IMG/VR virus record: IMGVR_UViG_3300042451_001197
Span: 1-64,000 of that record
Source: a virus
Length of the DNA: 64,000 nt
Direction: 5' to 3' (one strand)
In this document: piece after piece, positions 5,464-58,379 of the stretch
Layout of the letters: each line of letters begins with the position of its first letter
How positions within the stretch are numbered: position 1 is the stretch's first letter
Notes under the pieces: generated by a model
Databases searched by the model: none
Told to the model about the DNA's origin: nothing
The model's input: only the letters and a program-made list of their open reading frames with translations
Position numbers and translations under genes: made by a program

Positions 5464-5550
5464 TTATAATTTACCAAATATATTTCTCAAATCACATTTT
5501 TCTTTATGTGTTTGAATCTTCCTTAAAAAATTTAAAATCTTCCTTATCAT
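5464..5550 (-). CDS. Possible 28-aa basic peptide coupled to adhesin stop
   Basis: A short frame MIRKILNFLRKIQTHKEKC... starts inside the adhesin stop codon (ATGA overlap) and ends at the terminator. It is basic and could be chance; kept because of the exact overlap geometry seen for real genes here. Confidence 0.25.
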   Translation of the reverse strand: MIRKILNFLRKIQTHKEKCDLRNIFGKL

Positions 5551-8500
5551 TCAATTATAAATAATTCTTTAATTAATGTATTGTTTTTGTTATCTCTAAC
5601 CATTATAAAATATATTCCCGTATTAAGACTGGTTAGATTTAATTGGTCTTCGGATTTATTATAACCCGAATAAACAACTTGTCCTAAACTATTCTTAACC
5701 TCAACAAAATAAATATCACTTTCACCTCTAAAAACTCTAAATTCCATAATTCCTTTACCAGGATTTGGGTAGACAATAAAATCTAAGTCTTTATTATTGT
5801 TGTCATCTAAACCAACCATTCTTACATCACAAACTTTATTGACCCCAAAATAACCCATAGGACTTGACCCACAAGTATTCACACCCATAACACTAAAAGT
5901 TCCCCCAAAGAAAGATGACGATGTTTTAGCATATACCACATTACCCGTGGTCGAACCTATAAAAGAAGTTCCGTTGGGGTTACTCCAAATATAACTCGCA
6001 TTTCTTGGTGATATCGATGCGGTTAACATTATGGTGTCAGGAAAACAAGCTTGATTTATACCTGTAATTGTCGGTCTTTGTGTTAGTAACCCAATTCTTC
6101 TAGTACTCTTTACGGTACCACAAGAAAATTGTGTTGTTAATCTAATACTATCACAAGAGTTATTAATACAAGTTGACTCAAAATTACTTGGGAAAAATAC
6201 ACTTATTGAATTAGTTCCCTGACCACTAACTATCTGAGCATTATTTGGTACCGACCAAGTAAATGATAATGCTCCTGTTGTAGAAACACTATAAGTATTT
6301 GTATAACCATTGTCAACACAACTTGAACCATTTATAGTTACGGTTGGAAGTCCTACACTTACAACTCTAGTTAATGTTACAGGATTTCCACATCCTCCTG
6401 TTATGACTAACTGAATATTACCTCCAGTAAATCCATTTTGGAATGTTACTTGAATCGAATTTGTTCCTTGACCACTAACTATTGTTGAATTAACGGGAAC
6501 TGACCAATTGTAATTAACCCCACTTATTGGTGTAACACTAAAAGTTGTTGATGTATTTGTTCCAATTATACTACAAACACTTCTTACCCCTGATATTGAA
6601 GATGATGAAATTGTTGATTGGGTTGTTGATAAAGTTTTAGTTGATGATATACTACCACCACAACCATTATTTAGATTAACACTAATTGTTCCCGAAACAA
6701 ATGAGTTAGACACTAATACATTTATGACATTAGTTCCTTGACCTGATTGTATTGTCATATTTGTTGGAACTGACCAAGTAAATGTTCCACTTTGGTTTGT
6801 TACACTATAAGTTACCGATTGACCTAAGTATGGACATAAATCTCCAGGACCTGATATTGTACCAATATTACTATAAAGGTTGTTATTTGATACTGAACCA
6901 TAAGTCATAGGTGAACTACCACATTGATTAACTGACATTACACTAAACTGACCTGAAGTAAACGTGGTACTAAATTTAACTTTGATAGTGTCATTGTTAT
7001 TATTACCAACTAAAGAAACTCCATTCGGTAATCCCCATATATAATTAAATGAAGTTGGGACTGAATCTACACGATAGGTATAAATTGTATTACCATCAGA
7101 ACAAACCGTGGAAGGTCCTAAAATTGAAGTTGGTCTTGTAACATATTTGTCAATGGTAAATGTTTTAGTCGTGGTACTACAAGCGTTTGTTGCGGTAACC
7201 GAAGCGACTGAACCTGTAACAAAGTACATACTAAATTTAAACTGAACCGTATCATTACCTTGTCCTGAAAATACGTTAACCCCATACGGAGGAACCCAAG
7301 TATAAGTTGTATTTGGTTGTGAATTTGTAACTATATATTGTTTAATACTACCAATAGGGTCACCACAGAAATTACCTGAGATTGTAGGTTTGTTAGGTAA
7401 TTTAGAAACCCAAATACTTCTATGATAAGTAATGCCATTTGAAACAACATCAACTTCAATACTATCTTGAATAAACCCACTTGAAAAAGTTACATTAACA
7501 TTTTGACTACTCAACCCATTGGAAGATGTAACACTATTTGGTAATATCCAAGAAATGGTATTAGGTACCCCATTAGAATAGTTTATGGTGTACGTTGTTG
7601 AGTTAATACCACATATTGAACTAATACCACTAATTTGTCCTACAATAATTGGTGTTGAGTTACAACCCAAATTTACAGATGTTTGTGACGTACAACTTTT
7701 AGAATCAGTTACCGTTAAAGTGTAATTACCCGAAGGAATGTTTGTTAAATTTTGTGATGATGAACCATTAGACCAAGAATAAGAATAAGGTGATGTCCCA
7801 CCAACAACACTTACATTAATACTACCATTATTAAACCCACAGGTTGGTGTTACCGATGATGTAACAGAAATACTTAATTGATTTGGTTGACTTACATTTA
7901 AAGTTGTGATTTTATTACAACCTTTGTTATCAGTTATAGTTACGTTATAGTTACCTGCAGTTAAATTACTAATCGTATTTTGATTACTACCATTACCCCA
8001 TAAAATAATATAAGGTGATGTTCCACCTGAGATGTTTGTTACTGAAAGACTACCATTACTTTCACCAAAACAATTTACATTTGTTACTGAAGTGGTAACC
8101 GTAATTGTTGATGGTTGTGTTATTGTAACTGAGTTGGTTGTTGTACAACCTTTACTATCCGTGATTGTTACTGAATAAGTGTTTGCTGGTAAATTATTTA
8201 AGTCTTGATTAGTAGAACCATTAGACCAACTATATGAATAAGGTGAAGTTCCACCACTTGGGGTTAAGTTAATACTACCATTGACACCATTAAAACAACT
8301 AACATTTACGGAAGTTAATGATGATGTAAGTAACGTAGGTTGTGTGATTGTAACCGAGTTAGTTGAACTACATAGGTTGTTATCAGTAATTGTAACTGAG
8401 TAATTACCCGATGTTAGATTAGATATATCTTCAATTGTTCCACCATTTGACCAACTAAAAGTAAAAGGACTATTTCCTGTTGGTGTTAAATCTATCGAAC

Positions 8501-11087
8501 CATCACTACCACCATTACAAGAAACATTAATTGAAGTTAGTGTTGAAGTTGGCGGATAAGCTATAGTCCAACTAGATAAAATATCATAAGCATTGTTCGT
8601 ACAACCAATTCCTGTTGTACAATTTCCTCTTCTACCTCTAATTTGAACCGTAATCCCATCACTTAAAGATGATGTTGATATTGTTGTACCAGGAATATAA
8701 TTTGACCAAGAAGTTCCGTTAATTGTATATTGAAATATGTCAGAACAACCAACCCCACTTGAACCTGAATTGAATGTTGCGGATAAATCAGTTCCGACAC
8801 AAACATTATTAGTATTCGGTGTTTTAGTATTTAATGTTGGGTTAATTGGGTCAGGAATGACCGTAACCGTATGAATGTTTGATGTATCTTTACAACCATT
8901 ACCATCTGTAACGATAACTCTATAATCTCTCGTTACGGTTGGGGTTGCATTTATTGTTGAGGTGGTTACCGTATTTGACCAACTACCACTATTAAATTGC
9001 CATTGATAGGTATATGTCGGTATTCCCAATGTAACTGATGAAGTTATGTTGTTTGTTCCTGAACCACCCGCACAAATCTGTGATGAACTTGGTATTGTTA
9101 CAATCGGACTTGTGGCTAAAGATAATGTAACCGTATTTGAGTTTGTCGATTGATTACAACTATTTGTAACTTGAACATAGTAGTTTCCAAGGGTTGATGT
9201 TGAGTATGTGTCACTATTAGCTCCCGATATACTAACTCCGTTACGATACCATTGATATGTAAATGGTGTTCTAACCCCTGACGCAACAACTGAAAATGTT
9301 TGTGGTGTTGTACAAGTTTGTAAATTAATTGGTTGGGTTGTAATAGTTGGTGGTGATGAAGTATAAGTAACACCTAACTGAAAGTTTCCTTTAGCACTTC
9401 CATAACCTGTGACTAAAACATAATAGTCAGTATTGTTTGTTGAAGTGAAGGTAACTCTTGATTGTGTCGAACAATCGTCATCATTATAAGTTAAACAAGT
9501 TAGAGAACCACAAACTCCCGTATATACAAATAATTTAGTATCGAATGAAGTTCCTGTACATAAACTTAAAGTTATGTTTTGTCCATTACCAACCACCTTA
9601 TACCAAACACCAGGTGCTGTCCAAGTTTCAAAAACGTCTGTGAAACAACTCGGAGAATCCCCTGTTTGAGTTGCGTAATTAGTACTTCCATTCCAAGTTA
9701 CATCACAAGTTGTTGAGATTGCACCCGAACATAAATCGTTTGATGGGAGTGGAATACTACATTTTACTTGTCTTGTTCTGCTAACAGACTGAGTTCCACA
9801 ATTACTATTAGTATGAGTATAAAATCGAACAACTTCATCTGAAGTTGGTGTGTAGATTATTGGTGTTGTTCCGTAAATATATTTTGTTGTTCCACCACTA
9901 TTTGTTATGGTAATAAAATCTGTGGAAACTGAACTATTAAATGTATATTGAACGTTTGAAATTAAACTAACGTTTGAGTATTCACCCGCATATCCTAATG
10001 TTGTAATGTTTTCAAAAGAACCTGAACAAGATGGTGAGTATGTTGTAGAAGGATATAAAGTTCCGTTCGTACATCCAGGTGTTGATGTTGTAAATGACCA
10101 AGTTGAACAACTTAAAGCCGTACCTGCCGAATTTTTAGGAATAACCTTCCAATAATAAGTGGTCGAATTTGACAACGTTGGTGTATATGAAGTACCTGAT
10201 TGATTAACTACAAATGGGGGTGAACTATTTGTTCCAAAGTAAACGTCATAACTTGTTGCGTTACTAACCACACCCCAATTTAAAGTTTGTGATAATAAAA
10301 TGTCTGTTGAATTGTTTGTCGGTGATGTTAGTGTGGCACAAACGGGTATTGCGGTATAGGTTAATATTACACGACCCGCAGCTCCCGCTCCACCATTTCT
10401 TGATGTGGTGTTGTTTTTAAATGCTCCTCCACCCCCACCACCAGGTGTTGAACCTGCCGTACCATTACCACCCGAAGCGTGTCCACTACCACCATTACCA
10501 CCACCTGAAGGGGCTGTTGCTCCTGCAGTTCCTGTAGCATCAGTACCATTAGCAGAAGTCCCCGCACCTGAACCACCACCTCCAGAAGTTACTCCACCAA
10601 CCCTACCTGAACCACCTCGATATATTGTTTGTCCAACCGAATTAGTTGTTGTCCCGACACCCGCAGTAGTTCCAACCGCACTTTGACCGCCTTTTGCTAA
10701 GACACCATCATTAGAAGATGTGGGAGATGAGTTAGTTAATTCATTGACCCAAGTGTCATTTCCATTTGCAGCGTTACCTGATGTTCCTGTTCTTGACGCT
10801 CCAACCACCCAATAAATAATTTGACCAGGAGTTACGGATATTGTTGATATAGAATGAGAACCTCCCGCACCACCCGCTAAACCACCTGTTCCTGTGGTTG
10901 ATTGTCCTGTTCCCGCACCTCCACCACCCCAAGCATCAATCTTAATTGAATACACGTTTGAAGGTACAATCCAAGAACCCGAACCAGAACCTACTAAAGT
11001 TCCTGATGCAGGCATTGCAGTTTGTGAAAATGATTTAATACATAATAGTGTGAATAGAGTTAAAAATATGTATGTTATTTTTTTCAT
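5547..11087 (-). CDS. Giant multidomain surface adhesin with T9SS sorting domain
   Basis: 1846 residues, the largest gene in the window. Order: signal peptide (about 1-22, ending SFSQ), glycine-rich region (35-245, many GGxGG), fibronectin-III-like domain (about 250-335), a PPC-like domain (about 450-580, FDTKLFVYTGVCG), Ig-like domain with YQWYRNG, at least four SprB-type repeats (about 860-1160; SYSWSNGS...GNYSVTITD), a long run of PKD-like modules with GQGTN motifs (about 1180-1750), and a C-terminal type A T9SS sorting domain (about 1770-1846; VYPNPGKG, LNTGIYFI). It should cross the inner membrane by Sec and the outer membrane by the host type IX machinery. The sorting domain is intact, so it is built for host-cell display or secretion, not for virion assembly. 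Upstream lies a structured leader of about 90 nt with TATTTAT at its far end. Confidence 0.88.
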   Translation of the reverse strand: MKKITYIFLTLFTLLCIKSFSQTAMPASGTLVGSGSGSWIVPSNVYSIKIDAWGGGGAGTGQSTTGTGGLAGGAGGSHSISTISVTPGQIIYWVVGASRTGTSGNAANGNDTWVNELTNSSPTSSNDGVLAKGGQSAVGTTAGVGTTTNSVGQTIYRGGSGRVGGVTSGGGGSGAGTSANGTDATGTAGATAPSGGGNGGSGHASGGNGTAGSTPGGGGGGAFKNNTTSRNGGAGAAGRVILTYTAIPVCATLTSPTNNSTDILLSQTLNWGVVSNATSYDVYFGTNSSPPFVVNQSGTSYTPTLSNSTTYYWKVIPKNSAGTALSCSTWSFTTSTPGCTNGTLYPSTTYSPSCSGSFENITTLGYAGEYSNVSLISNVQYTFNSSVSTDFITITNSGGTTKYIYGTTPIIYTPTSDEVVRFYTHTNSNCGTQSVSRTRQVKCSIPLPSNDLCSGAISTTCDVTWNGSTNYATQTGDSPSCFTDVFETWTAPGVWYKVVGNGQNITLSLCTGTSFDTKLFVYTGVCGSLTCLTYNDDDCSTQSRVTFTSTNNTDYYVLVTGYGSAKGNFQLGVTYTSSPPTITTQPINLQTCTTPQTFSVVASGVRTPFTYQWYRNGVSISGANSDTYSTSTLGNYYVQVTNSCNQSTNSNTVTLSLATSPIVTIPSSSQICAGGSGTNNITSSVTLGIPTYTYQWQFNSGSWSNTVTTSTINATPTVTRDYRVIVTDGNGCKDTSNIHTVTVIPDPINPTLNTKTPNTNNVCVGTDLSATFNSGSSGVGCSDIFQYTINGTSWSNYIPGTTISTSSLSDGITVQIRGRRGNCTTGIGCTNNAYDILSSWTIAYPPTSTLTSINVSCNGGSDGSIDLTPTGNSPFTFSWSNGGTIEDISNLTSGNYSVTITDNNLCSSTNSVTITQPTLLTSSLTSVNVSCFNGVNGSINLTPSGGTSPYSYSWSNGSTNQDLNNLPANTYSVTITDSKGCTTTNSVTITQPSTITVTTSVTNVNCFGESNGSLSVTNISGGTSPYIILWGNGSNQNTISNLTAGNYNVTITDNKGCNKITTLNVSQPNQLSISVTSSVTPTCGFNNGSINVSVVGGTSPYSYSWSNGSSSQNLTNIPSGNYTLTVTDSKSCTSQTSVNLGCNSTPIIVGQISGISSICGINSTTYTINYSNGVPNTISWILPNSVTSSNGLSSQNVNVTFSSGFIQDSIEVDVVSNGITYHRSIWVSKLPNKPTISGNFCGDPIGSIKQYIVTNSQPNTTYTWVPPYGVNVFSGQGNDTVQFKFSMYFVTGSVASVTATNACSTTTKTFTIDKYVTRPTSILGPSTVCSDGNTIYTYRVDSVPTSFNYIWGLPNGVSLVGNNNNDTIKVKFSTTFTSGQFSVMSVNQCGSSPMTYGSVSNNNLYSNIGTISGPGDLCPYLGQSVTYSVTNQSGTFTWSVPTNMTIQSGQGTNVINVLVSNSFVSGTISVNLNNGCGGSISSTKTLSTTQSTISSSSISGVRSVCSIIGTNTSTTFSVTPISGVNYNWSVPVNSTIVSGQGTNSIQVTFQNGFTGGNIQLVITGGCGNPVTLTRVVSVGLPTVTINGSSCVDNGYTNTYSVSTTGALSFTWSVPNNAQIVSGQGTNSISVFFPSNFESTCINNSCDSIRLTTQFSCGTVKSTRRIGLLTQRPTITGINQACFPDTIMLTASISPRNASYIWSNPNGTSFIGSTTGNVVYAKTSSSFFGGTFSVMGVNTCGSSPMGYFGVNKVCDVRMVGLDDNNNKDLDFIVYPNPGKGIMEFRVFRGESDIYFVEVKNSLGQVVYSGYNKSEDQLNLTSLNTGIYFIMVRDNKNNTLIKELFIIE

Positions 11088-11955: not shown

Positions 11956-12594
11956 TTAATTATTATTGATTATATTTTTACATTTAGAACAGAAATCACC
12001 ACTATCATACTCGTCATTAGCGATGGCCATAATACAAGTCAAATCAGAACAATGGTCTAAACCAAGAGTGTGACCGATTTCGTGGATAGTCGTTTCTTTA
12101 ATAAACTCAGGTTTACCTCTCATAATAATAGTATTACCGTAGATTGTTGTATAACCTCTTAATCTCATACCATCTTTTGTGTATAAATTATTGTTGGTAA
12201 TATAGATAGTTTTAACATCTTTTCTCAAAGATGTGACACACTTGTAGGCGTCTAATGTATCACCATTAATAAACAAATCTGATGTAACTTGTTCAGGATT
12301 ACCAATACTTGTAGAATAACCATAAAAATCTTTAATTACATTAGATGTCTCTTCAAGTATAGAGTAATCAATGTTACCTAAAGGAACTATGTTTATATGT
12401 TGATTATTTTTTCTAACGGACTGATAATCAACGCTCTCTGTTCGAACTTCTTCATAAATTACAGGGGTTTCCGTAACTACCTGATTTTCAATACGTTTAA
12501 CATTTTTATTAATTTCTCCTTTGTTGTTTTTAACATATTCAGCAATTGTGAATACTACAACTACAAATAAAATGGTGGTGATTATATTTTTCAT
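11956..12594 (-). CDS. Membrane-anchored or secreted metzincin (archaemetzincin-like)
   Basis: 212 residues. An N-terminal hydrophobic helix (residues 3-20) is a signal peptide or anchor. The C-terminus holds HEIGHTLGLDHC (about residue 172), followed by CIM and then FCSKCK. That is the extended HExxHxxGxxH zinc site, the Met-turn and the extra cysteine pair of archaemetzincins. The gene is likely leaderless: TATATTTG ends 4 nt before the ATG. The product would act in the periplasm or outside the cell; substrate unknown. Archaemetzincins usually lack a signal peptide, so export here is unusual. Confidence 0.8.
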   Translation of the reverse strand: MKNIITTILFVVVVFTIAEYVKNNKGEINKNVKRIENQVVTETPVIYEEVRTESVDYQSVRKNNQHINIVPLGNIDYSILEETSNVIKDFYGYSTSIGNPEQVTSDLFINGDTLDAYKCVTSLRKDVKTIYITNNNLYTKDGMRLRGYTTIYGNTIIMRGKPEFIKETTIHEIGHTLGLDHCSDLTCIMAIANDEYDSGDFCSKCKNIINNN

Positions 12595-12598
12595 ACCA

Positions 12599-12606
12599 CA
12601 AATATA
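12599..12606 (-). promoter_or_regulatory. TAnnTTTG promoter box for metzincin gene
   Basis: TATATTTG on the minus strand, 4 nt before the ATG at 12594. Confidence 0.65.
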
Positions 12607-12674
12607 TGAACTTTTTCCTAATTGGCAAAATTTAATTTAAAATTCTTTTTATTTAGATTTAGTCTAAATAAAAA

Positions 12675-14999
12675 TCATAAATTTTTCTTACCACTAAAAA
12701 TATTTGGTAAATTGTTTCTTCTATTTGGTCTAGAAGGTATTACTTTTTCGATAGTTTTCCGTATAGAATCTTTCTTAATTTCTATGAGTTTTTCTCTATC
12801 AATAGGTTTTTTTTCTGAAACTATTCTAACATCTTGCTTTACAGGTTCAGTATTTATTATAGAATTTACTTTATTGTAATTTATTTCTTTTCTCTTATTT
12901 AAAGATTCTTTTATCGATTTTTTAATTAAGTCCGATTTTGAATGAATAATTTCAATATCTTTAGATATTTTGTCATTAACAATTATTTCAACTTTAATTT
13001 CTGTAAAAATTTCAGTAACTAAACTAGGTAACTTTAATTCTCCGTTATTTTTGAAACTTAAAATTCTGTAATCCTTTCTTATTTTTGAATCATATCCTGT
13101 TTCAGGACTTTGGGTTAAACTATTTGAATGTAATCTTCTAAAAAAACAATTATTTTTTGTAAATCCTAAAGATAGTCCGTTTTTATAAACTCTATTTGAA
13201 AAGTTTGAATCCGCCTCACATCTCCAAGGTTCAAATCCGTTCATAGACATAAAAACTTCTTTTTTAATTGAAAAGACACCTTCTCCGTAATATGTTATTT
13301 TTTTATGGTTGTTAACATTGTCTATAAAATCATAATACTTAGGTTTAACAATGTCTTTGGTTTTATGTAATTCCAACATATCCGCAACCATATTTTCATT
13401 CATAATATCATCCGAATCAAAGAATAATATTATTTCTGAGTTAGATATACTACATAAAGAATTTTTAATAATGTAAGGACCAACATTTTTTTCAAAAAAA
13501 TAAAATCTAATTCTGTTATCAAATTTTTTAGTTTTTATATAATTTAATGTCTCTTTACATCCGTCAATTCCTACAATAATTTCACAATCTAAATTTTTAA
13601 CTGACAATAAAACAGAATCTAAACATTCTTGTAAATATGAAGTATTTTTATAGGTTGGAATTATAATAGTGAGTATTTTTTCATTAATATCGAAATTACT
13701 AATTAATGGTTGTGTTTTTCTAAAAATCGGGTGCATCTTTGAATCGTCATTTCCGGTATGTTCCACTAAAGAACCGTAATTCTTTACTTTATAATTTAAA
13801 TTATTCAAACGCCTTGTCATTTGACACCCAACCCCGGATGAATTCATTTTACCTGTTGAGTTGATTGGATGTAACTCAAAATTTATCTTCTTGAAAAATG
13901 AATGTGGGGCACAAAAAGCACCGTCAACCCAATTTAGATAACCCCAATTAGTCTCTCCAATTCCTTTTTGTGTAAATAATCTAACAATTTCATTTTCATT
14001 AATAATTGTTTTTAATTTTTCAAAATATCCATTAATGAGTTTGAAGTCGTCCGCCAACATAACCCCATATTTAAATTTATATTTAGACATTTCATCTAAT
14101 AATTTGTTAACGGTTACCCAATACTTTTCTTTACCATTATTATTAGTATTTTCCAAATAGATAATATTTTTATTCAAATTTTTTAAATCTAAATACCTAT
14201 CATCTTTCGATCCATCATTTATAATAATGATTAATGTATTTGTATGACTTTCTAATATATTCTCAATTAAATTTTTTATTTTTTCATATCTCTCGTATGT
14301 GGGTATTATATATACAAAATCATATTTAACTTCTTTTTTATACCAAAAATATGTCGGGGTTGACGCGTAATTGACTTTATCGGTCGAGTACCCCAACTCA
14401 TTGGCAATTCTTTCAAAATTATTAAATTCCTCATCATTTCTAAGCTCGGCAATAATAATAGGATTGTATTTTAATATTATTTTTTTAGCACCCTCTAAAA
14501 CATTTGATTCGTAACCCTCAACATCTATCTTTATTAAATTTATATCCTCAAAATCATTTAACAATATATCTAAGCTATTTACAACAACATCACCTCCATC
14601 CCCAACAATTTTAGTCATACCAATATTTGTCATATCAATATCTGACACAACCACTTTTTTAGGTCTTTCTCCGACCGCCGCATTAATAGTAATTACATTA
14701 TCAGTATTTAAATTTTTAATATTTTCTTCCAGCACATTGAATATCATATAATTCATCTCGATTGAGACTACTTTGTCGGAATTACAGAATTTTGAAAAGA
14801 ATATTGTGTGATTACCTATGTTCGACCCAACATCAACATACGTTCCTTTTAAATTTAAAGATTTGACTTTTTCTAGTAATTTTAATTCGTAAAAATTACC
14901 CGTTATTTTTAAATGTTTAAAAATATGATCGGTCTCAGATAGACTAGTTAATAGTAATTTATTATTATTATAATTTATTTCTGTTACACTATTTCCCAT
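12675..14999 (-). CDS. FkbM methyltransferase fused to two glycosyltransferase domains
   Basis: 774 residues with three enzymes in one chain. Residues about 50-205 are an FkbM-type SAM methyltransferase (VDVGSNIGNHTIFF, SIEMNYM, LIKIDVEGYESNVLEGA). About 225-430 are a GT-A glycosyltransferase (VYIIPTYERYEKI, IIINDGSKDDR, MLADDFKL as the DxD-like site). About 440-650 are a GT2 glycosyltransferase (LTIIIPTYKNTSYLQECLDS, FFDSDDIM, EPWRCEADSNFSNR). A lysine-rich tail of about 100 residues ends the protein. It probably builds or methylates a glycan on host surface polysaccharide, phage DNA or virion protein. The start overlaps the glycosyltransferase gene upstream by 16 nt. Confidence 0.82.
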   Translation of the reverse strand: MGNSVTEINYNNNKLLLTSLSETDHIFKHLKITGNFYELKLLEKVKSLNLKGTYVDVGSNIGNHTIFFSKFCNSDKVVSIEMNYMIFNVLEENIKNLNTDNVITINAAVGERPKKVVVSDIDMTNIGMTKIVGDGGDVVVNSLDILLNDFEDINLIKIDVEGYESNVLEGAKKIILKYNPIIIAELRNDEEFNNFERIANELGYSTDKVNYASTPTYFWYKKEVKYDFVYIIPTYERYEKIKNLIENILESHTNTLIIIINDGSKDDRYLDLKNLNKNIIYLENTNNNGKEKYWVTVNKLLDEMSKYKFKYGVMLADDFKLINGYFEKLKTIINENEIVRLFTQKGIGETNWGYLNWVDGAFCAPHSFFKKINFELHPINSTGKMNSSGVGCQMTRRLNNLNYKVKNYGSLVEHTGNDDSKMHPIFRKTQPLISNFDINEKILTIIIPTYKNTSYLQECLDSVLLSVKNLDCEIIVGIDGCKETLNYIKTKKFDNRIRFYFFEKNVGPYIIKNSLCSISNSEIILFFDSDDIMNENMVADMLELHKTKDIVKPKYYDFIDNVNNHKKITYYGEGVFSIKKEVFMSMNGFEPWRCEADSNFSNRVYKNGLSLGFTKNNCFFRRLHSNSLTQSPETGYDSKIRKDYRILSFKNNGELKLPSLVTEIFTEIKVEIIVNDKISKDIEIIHSKSDLIKKSIKESLNKRKEINYNKVNSIINTEPVKQDVRIVSEKKPIDREKLIEIKKDSIRKTIEKVIPSRPNRRNNLPNIFSGKKNL

Positions 15000-19184: not shown

Positions 19185-20216
19185 ATGGATAAAAAATTCG
19201 ACTTTAAGGATATCACATTAGTTCCTGAAACAATCAGTTCAATTTCATCAAGAAAAGAGGTAAATCCCTTTTATGAAAATGGTAAATTACCAATATTTGT
19301 ATCACCAATGGATACCGTTGTTGATGGGGATAATTGTGAGTTATTTCACGAAAACAAATTAGAGGTATGTTTACCAAGAGGAGTTTTTTCAGGTGAAGAT
19401 GATTCATTTAGTTCAATATCGTTAACGGATTTTGAGAAAATAATTAATTGGTTTAGTGATGGTTCATTAGAAACTAAAGAGACTCGATTTTTAGTTGATA
19501 TCGCTAATGGTCATATGGAAAAATTACACGAATTATGTAAAAAATTCATAGAGACAAGAGAATCTGAAAAATATGAAATTATGGTTGGTAATGTCGCCAA
19601 CCCAAAAACATTTGAGAAATTTTGTGAAATAGGTGTTGATTATGTTAGAGTCGGTATTGGTGGTGGTAGCGGTTGTTTAACATCTGCGAATACCGGAGTT
19701 CACTATCCTATGGCGTCTTTAATTTCTGAATGTTATATGATTAAAAAAAATAACGGGTTTAAAACAAAAATAATAGCGGATGGTGGATTTAGAAATTATG
19801 ATGATATTATCAAAGCCATTGCTTTAGGTGCTGATTATGTTATGTTAGGAGGTATTTTAAATAAAACTTTAGAATCTTGTTCACCAACAAAATTATTTGA
19901 TTTAATACCGATTAGTGAGAAAACTACAAAATTAATATGGGAAAATTTTCCAATATTAAAAAAACGTCTATATAAAGATTTTAGAGGTATGAGTACTAAA
20001 GAAGTTCAAGTAAAATGGGGTAAAAATAAACCAACAACATCTGAAGGTATTTCAAAAACAAATAGAATTGAGTACACTTTAAATGGATGGGTTAGTAACT
20101 TTGAGGATTATCTTAGATCGGCTATGTCGTATACAAATTCAAAAGATTTAGAACAATTTAAAGATAGTGATTATATTTTTATCACCGAAAACGCTCTTAA
20201 TCGTTATAATAAATGA
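19185..20216 (+). CDS. IMP dehydrogenase / GMP reductase family enzyme
   Basis: 343 residues, a single (beta/alpha)8 barrel without CBS domains. Visible family landmarks: ITLVPE at the N-terminus, PMDTVVD, the nucleotide loop VGIGGGSGCLTSANTG with the catalytic cysteine (about residue 164), IADGGFRNYDDIIKAIALGADYVMLGG (phosphate site, quoted in part: IADGGF, ADYVMLGG), FRGMSTKE, and the C-terminal LRSAMSYTNSKDL. It should oxidise IMP to XMP or reduce GMP to IMP with NAD(P). The catalytic loop is GSGCLTS rather than the usual GSxCxT(R/Q), so which reaction it runs is not clear. It would shift the purine pool during infection. Confidence 0.85.
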   Translation: MDKKFDFKDITLVPETISSISSRKEVNPFYENGKLPIFVSPMDTVVDGDNCELFHENKLEVCLPRGVFSGEDDSFSSISLTDFEKIINWFSDGSLETKETRFLVDIANGHMEKLHELCKKFIETRESEKYEIMVGNVANPKTFEKFCEIGVDYVRVGIGGGSGCLTSANTGVHYPMASLISECYMIKKNNGFKTKIIADGGFRNYDDIIKAIALGADYVMLGGILNKTLESCSPTKLFDLIPISEKTTKLIWENFPILKKRLYKDFRGMSTKEVQVKWGKNKPTTSEGISKTNRIEYTLNGWVSNFEDYLRSAMSYTNSKDLEQFKDSDYIFITENALNRYNK

Positions 20217-26317: not shown

Positions 26318-28180
26318 TTACTTAACTTCCTCAAACTCAACATCATTTGGGTCTATTGTGGTTGATTGGTCTCCATCGCCACTACTTTGATACATTTCTT
26401 GTGAAATTTTGTGGAAATGTTCATTTAATTCATCCATATGTTTTGTAACAGACTCAACATCTTTTTTACTATGAGATTCTTTTAATAAATCTAACTTAGA
26501 ATTAATTTCGGTTTTTTGTTCTTCTGTTAATTTATCTGATAAATCATTCATTGATTTGGTAATATTGAATATTGTACTATCCGCCATATTTAAAACCTCA
26601 GCATCTTCTTTGGATTTCTTATCTGATTCGGCATTTAATTCCGCATCTCTTTTCATTCTTTCAATATCTTCTTGCGATAAACTTGATGAAGATTCAATTC
26701 TAATTGATTGTGTTTTGTTTGTGGCTTTATCAACCGCAGAAACATTAATTATACCGTCTGCATTCACATCAAACACGACTTCTATTTGAGGTGTTCCTCT
26801 CATAGCGGGTGGAATACCATCTAAATGAAATCTACCAATAGTTTTATTATCTTTTGCCATAGCTCTCTCACCTTGTAATACGTGAATTTCCACACTTGGT
26901 TGATTATCTGATGCGGTAGAAAAAACTTGTGATTTTTTGGTTGGAATTGTTGTATTTGACTCGATTAATTTTGTAAACACACCACCCATAGTTTCAATAC
27001 CTAAAGATAATGGTGTAACATCTAACAATAAAACATCCTTAACATCGCCCGCTAAAACACCTCCTTGAATTGCCGCTCCTAAAGCTACAACTTCATCAGG
27101 ATTTACCCCTTTTGATGGGTCTTTTCCGAAGAATTTCTTAACTGCGTCTTGGATTGCAGGAATTCTTGTTGTACCACCAACTAAGATAATTTCATCAATA
27201 TCACTCGGATTTAATTTCGCGTTTCTTAATGCTGACTTACAAGGGTCAATAGTTCTCTGAACCAAAGAATCTACCAATTGTTCAAATTTAGACCTTGTAA
27301 GTGTCTTAACTAAGTGTTTTGGAATACCATCTACCGGCATAATATAAGGTAAGTTAATCTCTGTTGAAACGCTTGAGGATAGTTCTATTTTAGCCTTTTC
27401 AGCGGCCTCCTTTAATCTTTGCAATGCCATAGGGTCTTTAGAAATATCGATACCATTCTCATCTTTAAACTCCTTAACTAACCAATCTATGATTGTATTG
27501 TCAAAATCATCACCACCTAAATGAGTATCACCATCTGTTGACAATACTTCAAAAACGCCATCACCTAATTCTAAAACTGATACATCGTGAGTTCCACCAC
27601 CACAATCAAATACCACGACCAAAATATCCTTATCTTTCTTATCAAGACCATAAGCTAGAGCGGCCGATGTGGGCTCGTTTATGATACGTCTTACATTTAA
27701 CCCCGCAATCTCACCGGCCTCTTTAGTTGCCTGTCTTTGAGCATCGTTAAAGTAAGCGGGTACGGTAATAACCGCGTCAGTCACAGAAGTTCCTAAATAA
27801 TCTTCAGCGGTCTGTTTCATTTTTTGTAAGATGATTGCCGAAACCTCTTGTGGGGAGTATTTTCTATCATCAATCTCAACTCTTGGAGAATTATTATCAC
27901 CTTTCACTACTTTATAAGGAACTCTTGTTAATTCCTTTTTGGATTCTTCAAAAGAAGTCCCCATAAATCTTTTAATTGAATGGATTGTTTTATCGGGGTT
28001 TGTAACCGATTGTCTTTTAGCAGGGTCTCCTATTTTTCTTTCCCCACTTGTTGTAAAACCAACGATTGATGGTGTTGTTCTCTTACCTTCACTATTAGGT
28101 ATCACCACAGGTTCATTACCTTCCATTACCGCAACACACGAATTCGTGGTCCCTAAATCAATTCCTATTATTTTTCCCAT
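26318..28180 (-). CDS. dnaK: Hsp70 chaperone DnaK, full length
   Basis: 620 residues, close to the usual 635-640. N-terminal ATPase: [16 protein letters not shown] (phosphate 1), [35 protein letters not shown] (phosphate 2; the C and H replacing L and F are, as I recall, usual in Bacteroidetes DnaK) and [11 protein letters not shown]. The substrate-binding part has [14 protein letters not shown] and the helical lid. The C-terminus ends [11 protein letters not shown], the acidic tail of bacterial DnaK. It appears functional, with no broken motif, and was probably taken from a Bacteroidetes host. It is transcribed alone, terminator at 26282, behind a leader of about 80 nt containing a perfect palindrome. 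Confidence 0.97.
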
Positions 28181-31897: not shown

Positions 31898-31957
31898 ATG
31901 AACAAACTAGATAAACAATACACAGACCTACTTCAAGACATTTTGGATAATGAATAA
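31898..31957 (+). CDS. 19-aa leader peptide overlapping thyA
   Basis: MNKLDKQYTDLLQDILDNE begins 18 nt after the promoter box and overlaps the thyA start by 8 nt (TAATGAATAA). It may couple translation to thyA or be a remnant. Confidence 0.4.
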   Translation: MNKLDKQYTDLLQDILDNE

Positions 31958-32780
31958 ATCTGACAAATATTACATAGACAACCTTCGTAAAATAATTTCG
32001 GAAGGTTCTTGGGATGAAAATCCTAGACCAAGGTATCTTGATGGAGCTCCAGCACATACTAAATTCATATCACAAGTATTTGAAGAATATGATATCTCAA
32101 AAGACGAATTTCCAATACCTACTTTAAGAGATACTGCAATTAAGACTGGTATAAAAGAGATATTTTGGATATACCAAGAACAATCATCGTCACTTGATGT
32201 CGCCCATAAAATGGGGATTAAATGGTGGGACGAATGGGATATTGGTGACGGTACAATTGGTCAAAGATATGGAAGAACGATTGCTAAATATCAATTGATG
32301 GATAAGTTATTGAGTGGTTTAATGAAAGATCCGTTTAGTCGTAGACATATTATTAATATGTACCAGTATTCAGATTTGGAGGAAACAAAAGGACTTCACC
32401 CTTGTGCCTACGAGATTATGTTTTCAGTTAGGAAAGAACAAGACGAATTAATACTTGATATGACACTAATCCAAAGGTCTAACGATTACTTAGTCGCGGG
32501 TTTTATAAATAAAATACAATATACAGCACTTTTAATGATGGTTGCAGGACATTGTAACTATAAAGTCGGCAAGTTTTGTCATTTAGTTCAAAATCTTCAC
32601 ATTTATGATAGACATTTTGACGCAGTTTTCGAACTCTTAAATAAAGAACCTTTGAATATTCAACCAAAATTAATTTTAAAAGAAAATAAAAATTTTTATC
32701 AATATACAATTGATGATTTTGAAATAATCGGAACAGAAGGTGTTACTAAATTAAATTTAAAATTGGAGTTGGCAATATAG
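31950..32780 (+). CDS. thyA: Thymidylate synthase ThyA
   Basis: 276 residues. Makes dTMP from dUMP with methylene-tetrahydrofolate. Landmarks: GDGTIGQRYG, the arginine-containing DPFSRRHIINM, the active-site loop GLHPCAYEIMF with the catalytic cysteine (about 151), LIQRSNDYLVAGFINKIQY with the Asn that marks thymidylate synthase rather than dCMP hydroxymethylase, and LHIYDRH near the end. The variant (WDENPRPRYLDGAPAH near the N-terminus) matches ThyA forms of Firmicutes and phages. Expressed behind a strong host-type promoter. Confidence 0.95.
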   Translation: MNKSDKYYIDNLRKIISEGSWDENPRPRYLDGAPAHTKFISQVFEEYDISKDEFPIPTLRDTAIKTGIKEIFWIYQEQSSSLDVAHKMGIKWWDEWDIGDGTIGQRYGRTIAKYQLMDKLLSGLMKDPFSRRHIINMYQYSDLEETKGLHPCAYEIMFSVRKEQDELILDMTLIQRSNDYLVAGFINKIQYTALLMMVAGHCNYKVGKFCHLVQNLHIYDRHFDAVFELLNKEPLNIQPKLILKENKNFYQYTIDDFEIIGTEGVTKLNLKLELAI

Positions 32781-36827: not shown

Positions 36828-37259
36828 TTAAGCAATTCCGACCACTTCTAAATCAAAGATTAGTTTTTTACCCGCCAAAGGATGGTTAGCATCTACGATA
36901 ACACTTTCATCTTTTACCTCAATTATTTTAACCATAATCGGTCCTTGAGGACCATTGCCTTGTAAGGTATCACCAACTTTTGGATTTTCAGGTATTTGAT
37001 TCTTAGGGACTTCAGCAGTCATCTCAATCAAATACTCTCCATAAGCGTCAGAAGGATTAATTTCGATGGTCTTCTTCTCACCTTCAGTCATTTCCAAAAG
37101 ACCATTTTCAAAACCAGGAATTAATTGCCCTTCACCGATTTTTGATTCCAAAGGATCCCTACCTTCAATCATAGAAGTATCGAAAATTGTTCCGTCTTCT
37201 AATCTACCTGTGTAATTCACCTTTACGGTGTCTCCATTTTTTATTTTTTTCATTTCCAT
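36828..37259 (-). CDS. SlyD-type FKBP peptidyl-prolyl isomerase
   Basis: 143 residues: FKBP core (GDTVKVNYTGRLEDGTIFDT, LIPGFENGLLEMTEGEKKTI, PSDAYGEY) with an inserted IF chaperone flap (about 75-120; VPKNQIPENPKVGDTLQG, VDANHPLAGKKLIFDLEV). This is the SlyD/FkpB arrangement that combines prolyl isomerase and chaperone activity. It lacks the His-rich metal-binding tail of E. coli SlyD. Together with DnaK it points to a phage-encoded folding toolkit. Confidence 0.9.
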   Translation of the reverse strand: MEMKKIKNGDTVKVNYTGRLEDGTIFDTSMIEGRDPLESKIGEGQLIPGFENGLLEMTEGEKKTIEINPSDAYGEYLIEMTAEVPKNQIPENPKVGDTLQGNGPQGPIMVKIIEVKDESVIVDANHPLAGKKLIFDLEVVGIA

Positions 37260-54698: not shown

Positions 54699-55010
54699 AT
54701 GAAATTCGAGATAAGTGATAATAAGTTGGAGAAGGTTGTCTTTAAGTATTTGGAAGGTAAGAACTTTATCATTAGGGAAACCCCTTATGATTATTACTTT
54801 TTGGAAAACGAGGGCGATAAATATGTTCAAATTAGAATCAGAAAAAATGATATGGTTTGTTTTATTTATTACAAATTAAGTGAAGAAATTGAATCGTTTT
54901 TTTCAATTGAATTTCCTATGGTTAAAGATGTTTTAAAAAAATATGTTGAGAATATCCTAAATATTAAAGTATCTAAAACATTTTTATCTCCAACTATTTT
55001 AATTGCGTAG
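54699..55010 (+). CDS. Tagged array paralogue D with one repeat unit
   Basis: 103 residues. Tag MKFEISDNKLEKVVFKYLEG, core RETPYDYYFLENEGD, RIRKNDMVCFIYYKLSEEI, SFFSIEFPM. The end VENILNIKVSKT is encoded by a 36-nt repeat unit (54945-54980), followed by a 29-nt unique stretch (FLSPTILIA, stop) and a truncated second repeat copy out of frame (55010-55028). Confidence 0.7.
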   Translation: MKFEISDNKLEKVVFKYLEGKNFIIRETPYDYYFLENEGDKYVQIRIRKNDMVCFIYYKLSEEIESFFSIEFPMVKDVLKKYVENILNIKVSKTFLSPTILIA

Positions 55011-55046
55011 TTGAGAATACCTTAAATTAATCTATTTATGTAATAA

Positions 55047-55392: not shown

Positions 55393-55749
55393 ATGAAATT
55401 CTTAATCACCGAAAATAAATTGGATAGGATTATTGATTCTTTTATCACCAAACAATTTGAAAATTTGGAACATATTAAAGAAGGTAATTTGGTTGTTTGG
55501 GTTGACCCTGATAAAAAACCATATGTACTTATTAGACACGATGATAATGGTGATTACGATATTAATATTTTGGAAAGTATTTATTTTTTGATTAGTGATA
55601 TGTTTTCTATTAAAGAACTTGAAGATGTGGAGAAATACTTATTAAAATGGTTTGAAAAACACACGGGGATGATTGCCGATGTTGTTTTCGCATTTGATAA
55701 CGATATAACCTATGAAGAAATTATTAGTATATATATTAAAGGTGCCTAA
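55393..55749 (+). CDS. Tagged array member J (divergent)
   Basis: 118 residues. Tag MKFLITENKLDRIIDSFITK, then EGNLVVWVDPDKKPYVLIRH, YFLISDMFSIKELEDVEKYL and a helical end. Closer in core to the 43-46 kb members than to A-H. TATTTAT lies 5 nt before the ATG. Confidence 0.65.
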   Translation: MKFLITENKLDRIIDSFITKQFENLEHIKEGNLVVWVDPDKKPYVLIRHDDNGDYDINILESIYFLISDMFSIKELEDVEKYLLKWFEKHTGMIADVVFAFDNDITYEEIISIYIKGA

Positions 55750-55819
55750 CACCAATAAAGAATTTTACCGGTTTTTCAATTTATTGATAATACCTTAAAT
55801 TAATGTATTTATGTAATAT

Positions 55820-56504: not shown

Positions 56505-56541
56505 TTAAAATTTTGTATTTGTTTATTTGATAATTTATCAT

Positions 56542-56553: not shown

Positions 56554-57276
56554 ATGATTTCAGATAAAATTAAAAAAATTATATTTGATAAATTATATAA
56601 GGATTTATCTAATGTTGAGATTATTCCCCACGAAAATAGTATTTGGTTTATAGATAGGGAAGAGAAGTATTGGTATTTTGAATTTACCAAGTCAGGTGAA
56701 TTGTGGTGGAGATATTCTTTCTTTGTTGATTTTTTTCAGTTTTTTTCTATGGAATATAAGGAGTTTGTACCGATTATTAGTGAATGGGTGGAAGAGGTTT
56801 TGAATTCTAAGGTGTTTGAAACAGGGAAATTATTTTACGACTATGCACCTGAAGTGGAAGAGATATTAAATTCTAAGGTATCTACAACTGAAAGTTTATC
56901 CTTTAAGTCAGTAGGGTTGGTGGAAGAGGTATTAAATTTTAAGGTGTCTACAACTACTTCTAAATTTTCAAAAAAAAGCATTATGGTGGAAGAGGTATTA
57001 AATTCTAAGGTGTCTACAACTACGAAAAGACATTCCCCACATATCAGACAGGTGGAAAAAGTGTTAAATTCTAAGGTGTCTACAACAATTCAGGCACAAT
57101 TTCTTCTTCAGTCTCGGGTGGAAGAGATATTAAATTCTAAGGTATCGACAACTTGGTTAAATGGTTGTAATAGGGATGAAAAGGTTGGGGAAGTATTGGA
57201 TTGTAAGGTGACTGAAACCAAATTAGGTCCTACAAGTAAATTTTATGAAATAAATAAGGTTTTATCTCAAACATAA
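56554..57276 (+). CDS. Array paralogue L with seven 22-residue repeats
   Basis: 240 residues from the leaderless ATG. The N-terminus MISDKIKKIIFDKLYKDL is a helix but lacks the ITE tag. The core WFIDREEKYWYFEFTKSGEL and FFSMEYKEF matches the family. From residue 79 the paralogue end motif is repeated seven times: VEEVLNSKVSTT-like 12 residues plus 10 unrelated residues. The 10-residue segments share nothing with each other, while repeats 2-6 are almost the same at DNA level. No stop occurs in any unit. It may be a protein with hypervariable loops, or a coding array built by stepwise insertion; it is described as a finding. Confidence 0.7.
   Translation: MISDKIKKIIFDKLYKDLSNVEIIPHENSIWFIDREEKYWYFEFTKSGELWWRYSFFVDFFQFFSMEYKEFVPIISEWVEEVLNSKVFETGKLFYDYAPEVEEILNSKVSTTESLSFKSVGLVEEVLNFKVSTTTSKFSKKSIMVEEVLNSKVSTTTKRHSPHIRQVEKVLNSKVSTTIQAQFLLQSRVEEILNSKVSTTWLNGCNRDEKVGEVLDCKVTETKLGPTSKFYEINKVLSQT
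56788..57249 (+). repeat. Seven 66-bp units: 36-nt conserved + 30-nt unique
   Basis: Exact 66-nt period. Conserved part in repeats 2-6 is GTGGAAGAG(G/A)TATTAAAT...CTAAGGT(G/A)TCTACAACT-like with few changes (quoted in part); repeats 1 and 7 are more diverged. The 30-nt segments between are unrelated. Geometry equals that of type II-C and VI-B CRISPR arrays, but the array is in frame inside a gene and repeat changes are largely at codon third positions or conservative. Confidence 0.9.
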
Positions 57277-58052: not shown

Positions 58053-58379
58053 ATGAATTTTGAGATTAACGAAAACAAATTACAAAATATTGTCTTCAAG
58101 TATGTGGACAATAAAAACTATGTCATTAAAGAAACTGATAATGATTATTACTTTATAGAAAACGAAGAAGATGAGTATGCTCAGATTAGAATTAGAAAAA
58201 GTGATAAAGTTTGTGTTATTTATCACAAATTAACTGAAGAAATTGAATCGTTTTTTTCAATTGAATACCCTATGGTTGAAGATGTTTTAACGAGATATGT
58301 TGAGAATACCATAAATATTGAGGTGTCTAAAACCCTATTAGGTATAAATCTTAAAGCAGAAGCGTTGAGAATACCTTAA
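58053..58379 (+). CDS. Tagged array paralogue H with one repeat unit
   Basis: 108 residues. Tag MNFEINENKLQNIVFKYVDN, core KETDNDYYFIENEEDEYAQI, RIRKSDKVCVIYHKLTEEI, SFFSIEYPMVEDVLTRYVEN. Repeat unit at 58299-58334, 29-nt unique part, then the start of a second unit (58364 on) read out of frame as LRIP and stop. TATTTAT lies 4 nt before the ATG. Confidence 0.7.
   Translation: MNFEINENKLQNIVFKYVDNKNYVIKETDNDYYFIENEEDEYAQIRIRKSDKVCVIYHKLTEEIESFFSIEYPMVEDVLTRYVENTINIEVSKTLLGINLKAEALRIP

Follow-up and report, generated by a model that had tools for sequence, protein, structure and literature searches.

The stretch analysed here, referred to as the window, comprises bases 1-64000 of the IMG/VR virus record IMGVR_UViG_3300042451_001197, which is 106,819 bp long. 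It carries a gene (56554-57276), here called the array gene, in which a head of about 78 residues is followed by seven units of 22 residues (66 nt) and then by a truncated last repeat. The units start at 56788, 56854, 56920, 56986, 57052, 57118 and 57184, all in frame, and the period of 66 was also recovered by Tandem Repeats Finder, confirming the exact period and the seven in-frame units claimed in a preliminary description of this DNA. Taken in order, the 40-nt segments at the seven unit starts were 75, 83, 100, 98, 83, 83 and 68% identical to unit 3. The 36-nt repeats are near-identical in units 2-6 and degenerate in units 1 and 7, the 30-nt segments of the gene have nothing in common, and the gene ends in a truncated eighth repeat, INKVLSQT-stop. 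The earlier division into 36 and 30 nt thus held for the near-identical repeats 2-6 and the unrelated segments between them, whereas the repeat borders had to be shifted by one base relative to the codons. The DNA repeat reads G-GTGGAAGAG...ACAAC, with starts at 56787, 56853 and so on, its two ends in the window being GGTGGAAGAG and ACAAC, and the insert consists of the third base of a Thr codon plus 29 nt. No further copy of the array repeat was found elsewhere in the record with up to three mismatches allowed. Dozens of further phage genes show this layout, which excludes chance. The geometry noticed earlier, like that of clustered regularly interspaced short palindromic repeats (CRISPR), is supported.

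The head matched no Pfam, PHROG or PADLOC family. An AlphaFold2 model of the head alone (34 sequences) reached a mean predicted local distance difference test score (pLDDT) of 94.9. Comparison of this model with the PDB gave no clear relative (best E 0.58), and its matches in a viral structure library were unnamed proteins of uncultured phages only. Full-length structure prediction was poor, with a pLDDT of about 30 for the array tail, which is probably disordered.

Array genes in other phages and the DNA-level unit

Searches with protein sequences and with patterns identified 43 different array open reading frames; with whole contigs added, the count rose to about 50 array genes on roughly 30 IMG/VR contigs, the longest of 326 kb. 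Three or four array paralogues, often adjacent, occur in several of the phages. The carriers are large uncultured viruses, probably infecting Bacteroidota; all are metagenomic, their contigs may be incomplete, and the same populations were probably sampled repeatedly. No array genes were found in INPHARED, and the head domain had no match among the 84,980 genomes scanned with it.

Codon identity was compared at same-residue codons between arrays whose heads are less than 85% identical. At repeat 1 it was 1.00, 1.00 and 0.99 for GTG, GAA and GAG, and 1.00 for both AAT and AAG. The head gave 0.55-0.56 and the last Thr codon 0.23, and in the middle part of the repeat several codons vary as freely as codons elsewhere. 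The third base of that last Thr codon is free (A 51, C 30, G 25, T 48), and of the 148 distinct inserts, 136 have G as the third base just ahead of the repeat, whatever the amino acid.

Unit spacing, for which 64-68 was allowed in the search, is mostly 66, with 65 and 67 also present. Genes with a single unit carry a repeat, 29-31 nt and a partial repeat in any frame, the spacing being 65, 67 or 66 in 8, 5 and 3 of 16 cases. A 23-nt copy of the repeat lies past the stop codon in one contig (G008). When IMG/VR was scanned with the pattern GGTGGA-N25-ACAAC-N29-31-GGTGGA, further gene families were obtained in which repeats are identical at 36/36 positions though translation has already ended. 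Repeat length, ends and spacing were conditions of this search at the loci L211-L282; the 25 inner bases and the location past stop codons were not. In four separate metagenome contigs (L213, L230, L251 and L255) 36/36 repeats beyond the stop codon enclose inserts of 29, 29 and 31 nt, and in L272 such repeats enclose inserts of 31, 29, 30 and 30 nt. CRISPR arrays have near-identical direct repeats of constant length, about 21-48 bp, and the phage repeat agrees with this at 36 nt and up to 36/36 identity. Because its borders are out of phase with the codons, because synonymous changes are frozen out at its ends and because its copies are independent of frame, the unit is a unit of DNA. The repeats are DNA elements independent of the reading frame, and they are shared by the single-unit neighbours of the array gene in the window. 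An ordinary protein tandem repeat would be kept only as protein and in frame; here, repeats out of frame and past stop codons are conserved as well.

Other members of the family differ in several ways. Besides arrays of the VEEVLN type, the phage contig G007 (IMGVR_UViG_3300042541_001626) carries another array gene at 12471-13001, which has a head and a repeat, WVDEAYNLRGVTT, unlike theirs. The array proteins encoded by L220 and L257 of IMG/VR are far longer, at 361 and 494 aa, and have an additional conserved region at the C-terminus; L257 has about a dozen units. Array genes at 97222 in G012, 107070 in G010 and 7667 in G011 have irregular unit lengths and eroded repeats, and are apparently decaying arrays. 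A repeat-pattern scan of the genome collection mentioned above gave mostly chance matches and a few CRISPR-like arrays. One of them (L330; JAFTEV010000081.1, a Bacteroidaceae metagenome-assembled genome) is a three-spacer array, GGTGGAAGCGGATGAGAAAAAGAGGGTAGTTACAAC, with spacers of 30, 29 and 30 nt and without the array protein. It may be an orphan array of a cell or may lie on a phage contig, and no Cas1 was found in this assembled genome.

Turnover, polarity and translation of the inserts

Relatives of the array genes were compared in four orthologous groups of five to eight members each. Inserts are gained, lost or swapped whole while the neighbouring inserts remain unchanged, as in the series DSTQYVMDGG-ASRFRSFKQG-QQFSFTSNDM-KNMTLSNNYL-[CYSQTVLREQ]-EYLHPRGNLE-VRDVGEGNFL-EEYISRRAES. 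This supports insertion or replacement of the 30-mers one by one, as had been proposed among other possibilities; the change among relatives is unit turnover, not slow substitution in place. No similar pair of inserts was found inside any array (0/696), and therefore the units were not made by tandem duplication. The turnover is polar: on average the head-proximal insert is shared with 27% of the orthologues and the last insert with 73%, and sharing rises with distance from the head (rank correlation rho 0.37, within-array permutation p 0.0002). Match of the repeats to the array consensus falls from 34.3/36 near the head to 31.1/36 distally, a trend seen in 36 of 40 arrays (p 3e-7).

In VEEVLN-type arrays translation is kept in 168 of 172 units (counted on DNA, in any frame), where 53-61% of random 30-mers would be stop-free, per unit. 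In being translated these arrays differ from noncoding CRISPR arrays, and the view of a coding array with interchangeable 10-residue segments is supported. Inserts common to orthologues carry 25.5 nonsynonymous and 23.5 synonymous substitutions, small counts from nearest-neighbour comparisons that correspond to a ratio of nonsynonymous to synonymous rates (dN/dS) of about 0.29 (binomial p 5e-5 versus neutrality); the head gives 0.16. The diversifying selection earlier considered for the 30-mers is not borne out, since shared segments are under purifying selection and novelty comes as whole segments. Because purifying selection keeps them once they are present, the inserts have some effect as peptides or, at the least, have to leave solubility unharmed. 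Their grand average of hydropathy is -0.63, whereas stop-free 30-mers drawn at random from Bacteroidota DNA score about -0.07. The G+C content of the inserts is 0.40, versus about 0.31 in the phages. Neither their codon signature nor their hydrophilicity is reproduced by such random 30-mers, whether taken from Bacteroidota or from phage DNA.

Origin of the arrays: proposed mechanism and alternatives

Arrays written by Cas1-Cas2 have a constant, exactly copied repeat and unrelated inserts of near-constant length; they grow from one end, and their last repeat is degenerate (PMC6895254; also established knowledge). With moderate confidence, we interpret the 3' end of the array gene as a CRISPR-like array that is at the same time coding sequence and was written by a Cas1-Cas2-like integrase with a length ruler. 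Such an integrase would put fragments of 30 +/- 1 nt beside a 36-bp repeat-like sequence in the gene, duplicating the repeat at each insertion, preferably at the head-proximal (leader) end; units would be removed by recombination between repeats, and distal units would decay. In VEEVLN-type genes, to which the array gene of the window belongs, selection maintains translation across the array, and each captured fragment would add a hydrophilic peptide of 10 residues to the tail, probably disordered, that follows the conserved folded head. We infer both that an integrase is the agent and that it is the adaptation machinery of the host. The enzyme would be the host's because neither Cas1 nor reverse transcriptase is detectable in the phages; it would most likely come from a Bacteroidota host and work in trans. 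The phage of the window probably infects Bacteroidota, since its DnaK shares up to 75% identity with those of Bacteroidota genomes and it encodes a protein with SprB repeats and a Por tail.

The best-fitting published case is Flavobacterium columnare, in which type II-C and VI-B repeats are 36 bp long and mainly share a leader-distal 5'-GTTGT. There the II-C Cas1 supplies the VI-B array in trans with spacers drawn from phage as well as host DNA, and the motif next to II-C protospacers is TAAA (PMC8092290). Read on the other strand, the phage repeats run GTTGT...CCACC, with GTTGT distal to the variable end. They resemble the Bacteroidota II-C/VI-B arrays in the 36-bp repeat, the leader-distal GTTGT and the variable leader end (PMC8092290), a likeness for which only repeats from the protein search count. 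The likeness to type VI-B repeats pointed out earlier fits the published length and the GTTGT end, as a resemblance and not as membership. Unlike those arrays, the phage arrays are coding, their repeat middle varies between gene families, and no Cas1 was detected in the phages.

Several observations weigh against an integrase of this kind. Type II systems read the leader-repeat junction (PMC6895254), whereas the DNA directly upstream of the first repeat is not conserved here (codon identity 0.56 over 10 codons, as in the head). Some novel inserts are internal instead of leader-proximal, arrays mostly finish with only half a repeat, the repeat RNA has no conserved hairpin, and at L211-L282 repeat length and ends were set by the search pattern. 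No Cas1 scored above the cut-off in any tested phage record. The external matches expected for captured segments were not found in related phages, INPHARED, about 400 candidate-host genomes or IMG/VR scans, though the true sources may be absent from these collections. For 164 distinct inserts, 2.56 Mb of DNA from 32 array-carrying contigs held no convincing source; the longest exact match was 19 nt, with a slight and unconvincing excess of matches over reversed and shuffled controls. About 90 inserts gave a single 25-nt match in INPHARED (E=4). About 70 inserts gave none at E<=1e-4 in about 400 genomes belonging to the same order as the genome whose DnaK is closest, by a method that does recover exact 30-mers. 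In exact searches of IMG/VR, three inserts matched their own arrays only or nothing.

The strongest alternative, somewhat unlikely in our judgement, is homologous recombination alone between array genes of co-infecting phages, with the repeats as crossover sites and a large standing pool of 66-nt cassettes as the source of novelty. Unit order is conserved among orthologues, units are gained and lost also inside arrays, and some distal ends have been exchanged between paralogous arrays: DVEMSVMNYV occurs in two array groups, and one phage has the pair THMYNNGEIW/THMYTNGEIQ spread over two of its arrays. Losses and part of the exchanges can be put down to recombination between repeats; the novelty cannot. 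The 148-164 distinct inserts counted are shared only among orthologous or sister arrays, without a general pool, and recombination alone leaves unexplained the origin of the segments, the 29- and 31-nt inserts between perfect untranslated repeats and the bias towards the leader end.

It is improbable that the arrays are ordinary virus-borne mini-CRISPRs that supply guide RNAs for host Cas9 or Cas13b in interviral conflict, their location in a gene being incidental. Geometry, polarity, the degenerate terminal repeat and the frame-independent copies would all agree with this, and virus mini-arrays without cas genes are already known (PMC6858448). Those of the Sulfolobales viruses SPV1 and SPV2, like the phage arrays, lie on a virus without cas genes and turn over their spacers between close relatives, and their spacers are thought to be added by host machinery (PMC6858448). 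They lie between genes, however, their leaders are host-like and their spacers match related viruses (PMC6858448), whereas the phage arrays form the translated 3' part of a gene and have no conserved leader and no matched spacer. The translated units, the hydrophilic inserts under purifying selection, the poor folding of the repeats, the lack of a conserved leader and the absence of protospacers from our searches do not fit guide RNAs, although a guide-RNA role may apply to the untranslated arrays.

A multi-core peptide precursor, in which the 12-residue constant segments serve as processing or recognition sites and the 10-residue segments are released, is very unlikely. Precursors of ribosomally synthesized and post-translationally modified peptides (RiPPs), such as cyanobactin PatE, likewise combine a conserved leader, comparable to the head, with constant flanks and hypervariable short cores, as is generally known. 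They offer no explanation for the untranslated, frame-independent DNA repeats, the ruler of 30 +/- 1 nt or the polarity of growth, and the cores of one array are unrelated. No tailoring, modification or protease genes were recognised, none having been specifically looked for; PADLOC and Pfam yielded nothing useful for the small genes nearby, and no search was aimed at RiPP enzymes.

Least probable of all is an ordinary protein tandem repeat with fast-evolving 10-residue loops: the in-frame 22-residue period and the purifying selection on shared loops agree with it, but it is contradicted by the out-of-phase DNA borders, the frozen synonymous sites, the 29- and 31-nt inserts, the lack of duplicated loops, the wholesale replacement between close relatives and the perfect repeats out of frame or past stop codons. 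False-CRISPR elements made of protein-coding tandem repeats also have a CRISPR-like layout overlapping coding sequence (PMC5294841); the phage arrays differ from them in spacers unrelated within an array, whole turnover and copies outside reading frames.

Other known systems were also compared. Diversity-generating retroelements similarly direct diversification to a phage protein (general knowledge), but act by mutation at adenines and not by insertion of whole segments; no reverse transcriptase (RVT_1) match was found in the contigs. TIGR-Tas was rejected for want of a PF01798 (Nop domain) match above the cut-off, and a phage-encoded Cas1 for want of one in the phage contigs. The CRISPR systems of huge phages likewise have compact arrays on a large phage genome and mostly lack genes for spacer acquisition, but they comprise effector genes or guide arrays and not translated gene tails (PMC7162821). 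Layout and growth of the phage arrays are CRISPR-like; we do not file them as CRISPR arrays, as they have no conserved leader, are coding and have no known protospacer.

If a ruler integrase writes the arrays, the two likeliest benefits to the phage, between which the data do not decide, are a peptide display that can be renewed during an arms race with host proteins, and a bait diverting spacer acquisition from the host's own array. Peptide display is favoured for the translated arrays because purifying selection acts on their inserts; the arrays that are untranslated or have a single insert agree with a bait for the host adaptation complex. A fuller proposal, which we put forward tentatively as possible, is that phages have turned host CRISPR adaptation into a protein-diversifying device: the genes would end in a target site resembling a repeat, the host integrase would write 30-nt fragments of whatever DNA is available into it, and the phage would translate them into a heritable and renewable set of peptides against host factors. 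Spacer acquisition would then be, besides cellular immune memory, a one-step source of new viral protein sequence, and CRISPR-like arrays would be readable as protein, the acquired repertoire being read as protein and not as guide RNA. It would be a natural case of new coding sequence arising from ruler-measured insertion of foreign DNA, and the arrays would represent a new kind of hypervariable phage protein, perhaps a counter-defence that baits the host adaptation complex. The DNA ends truly needed by Bacteroidota Cas1-Cas2 would become testable. We found no description of translated arrays of this kind in the open-access literature. Array finders applied to viromes may mix coding and noncoding arrays.

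Feature coordinates and other genes of the window

Table 1. Array gene, its units and the single-unit paralogues, in window coordinates.
Feature	Position	Strand	Remarks
Array gene, 240 aa	56554..57276	+	ATG 56554; in-frame TTG at 56527
Head domain, ~78 aa	56554..56787	+	predicted helix, three to four strands, two helices
DNA repeat 1, degenerate	56787..56822	+	VEEVLNSKVFET
Insert 1	56823..56852	+	GKLFYDYAPE
DNA repeat 2	56853..56888	+	
Insert 2	56889..56918	+	ESLSFKSVGL
DNA repeat 3	56919..56954	+	
Insert 3	56955..56984	+	TSKFSKKSIM
DNA repeat 4	56985..57020	+	GGTGGAAGAGGTATTAAATTCTAAGGTGTCTACAAC
Insert 4	57021..57050	+	TKRHSPHIRQ; 26-nt core, no other exact IMG/VR match
DNA repeat 5	57051..57086	+	
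Insert 5	57087..57116	+	IQAQFLLQSR
DNA repeat 6	57117..57152	+	
Insert 6	57153..57182	+	WLNGCNRDEK
DNA repeat 7, degenerate	57183..57218	+	VGEVLDCKVTET
Insert 7	57219..57248	+	KLGPTSKFYE
Terminal repeat, truncated and degenerate	57249..57276	+	INKVLSQT-stop; other arrays also end in half repeat
Paralogue ending in single unit	54699..55010	+	
Repeat of paralogue 54699-55010	54944..54979	+	TGTTGAGAATATCCTAAATATTAAAGTATCTAAAAC
29-nt insert of paralogue 54699-55010	54980..55008	+	frame-shifting; gene stops at TAG 55008-55010
Second partial repeat of paralogue 54699-55010	55009..55021	+	GTTGAGAATACC; at and past stop codon, untranslated
Paralogue ending in single unit	58053..58379	+	
Repeat of paralogue 58053-58379	58298..58333	+	TGTTGAGAATACCATAAATATTGAGGTGTCTAAAAC
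29-nt, frame-shifting insert of paralogue 58053-58379	58334..58362	+	
Second partial repeat of paralogue 58053-58379	58363..58379	+	other frame; ..LRIP-stop

A repeat-like sequence, TTGATAATACCTTAAATTAATG, lies at 55784-55805 in noncoding DNA, 34 nt past the stop codon of the gene at 55393-55749, and is possibly a decayed unit.

The protein with SprB repeats is encoded at 5547-11087 (-); it has 1846 residues, with PKD-like domains and a Por (type IX) secretion tail. The window also carries genes for DnaK (26318-28180, -), FKBP (36828-37259, -), an IMPDH/GMP-reductase-like protein (19185-20216, +) and thymidylate synthase (31950-32780, +). Between 16000 and 59800, dozens of small proteins have a common short N-terminus, MK-F/Y-L/I-ITE-x-x-L or MKK-x-IRLTESDL-x-x-L-V/I-KRVI, which may resemble the capsid-targeting leaders of T4-like internal head proteins.
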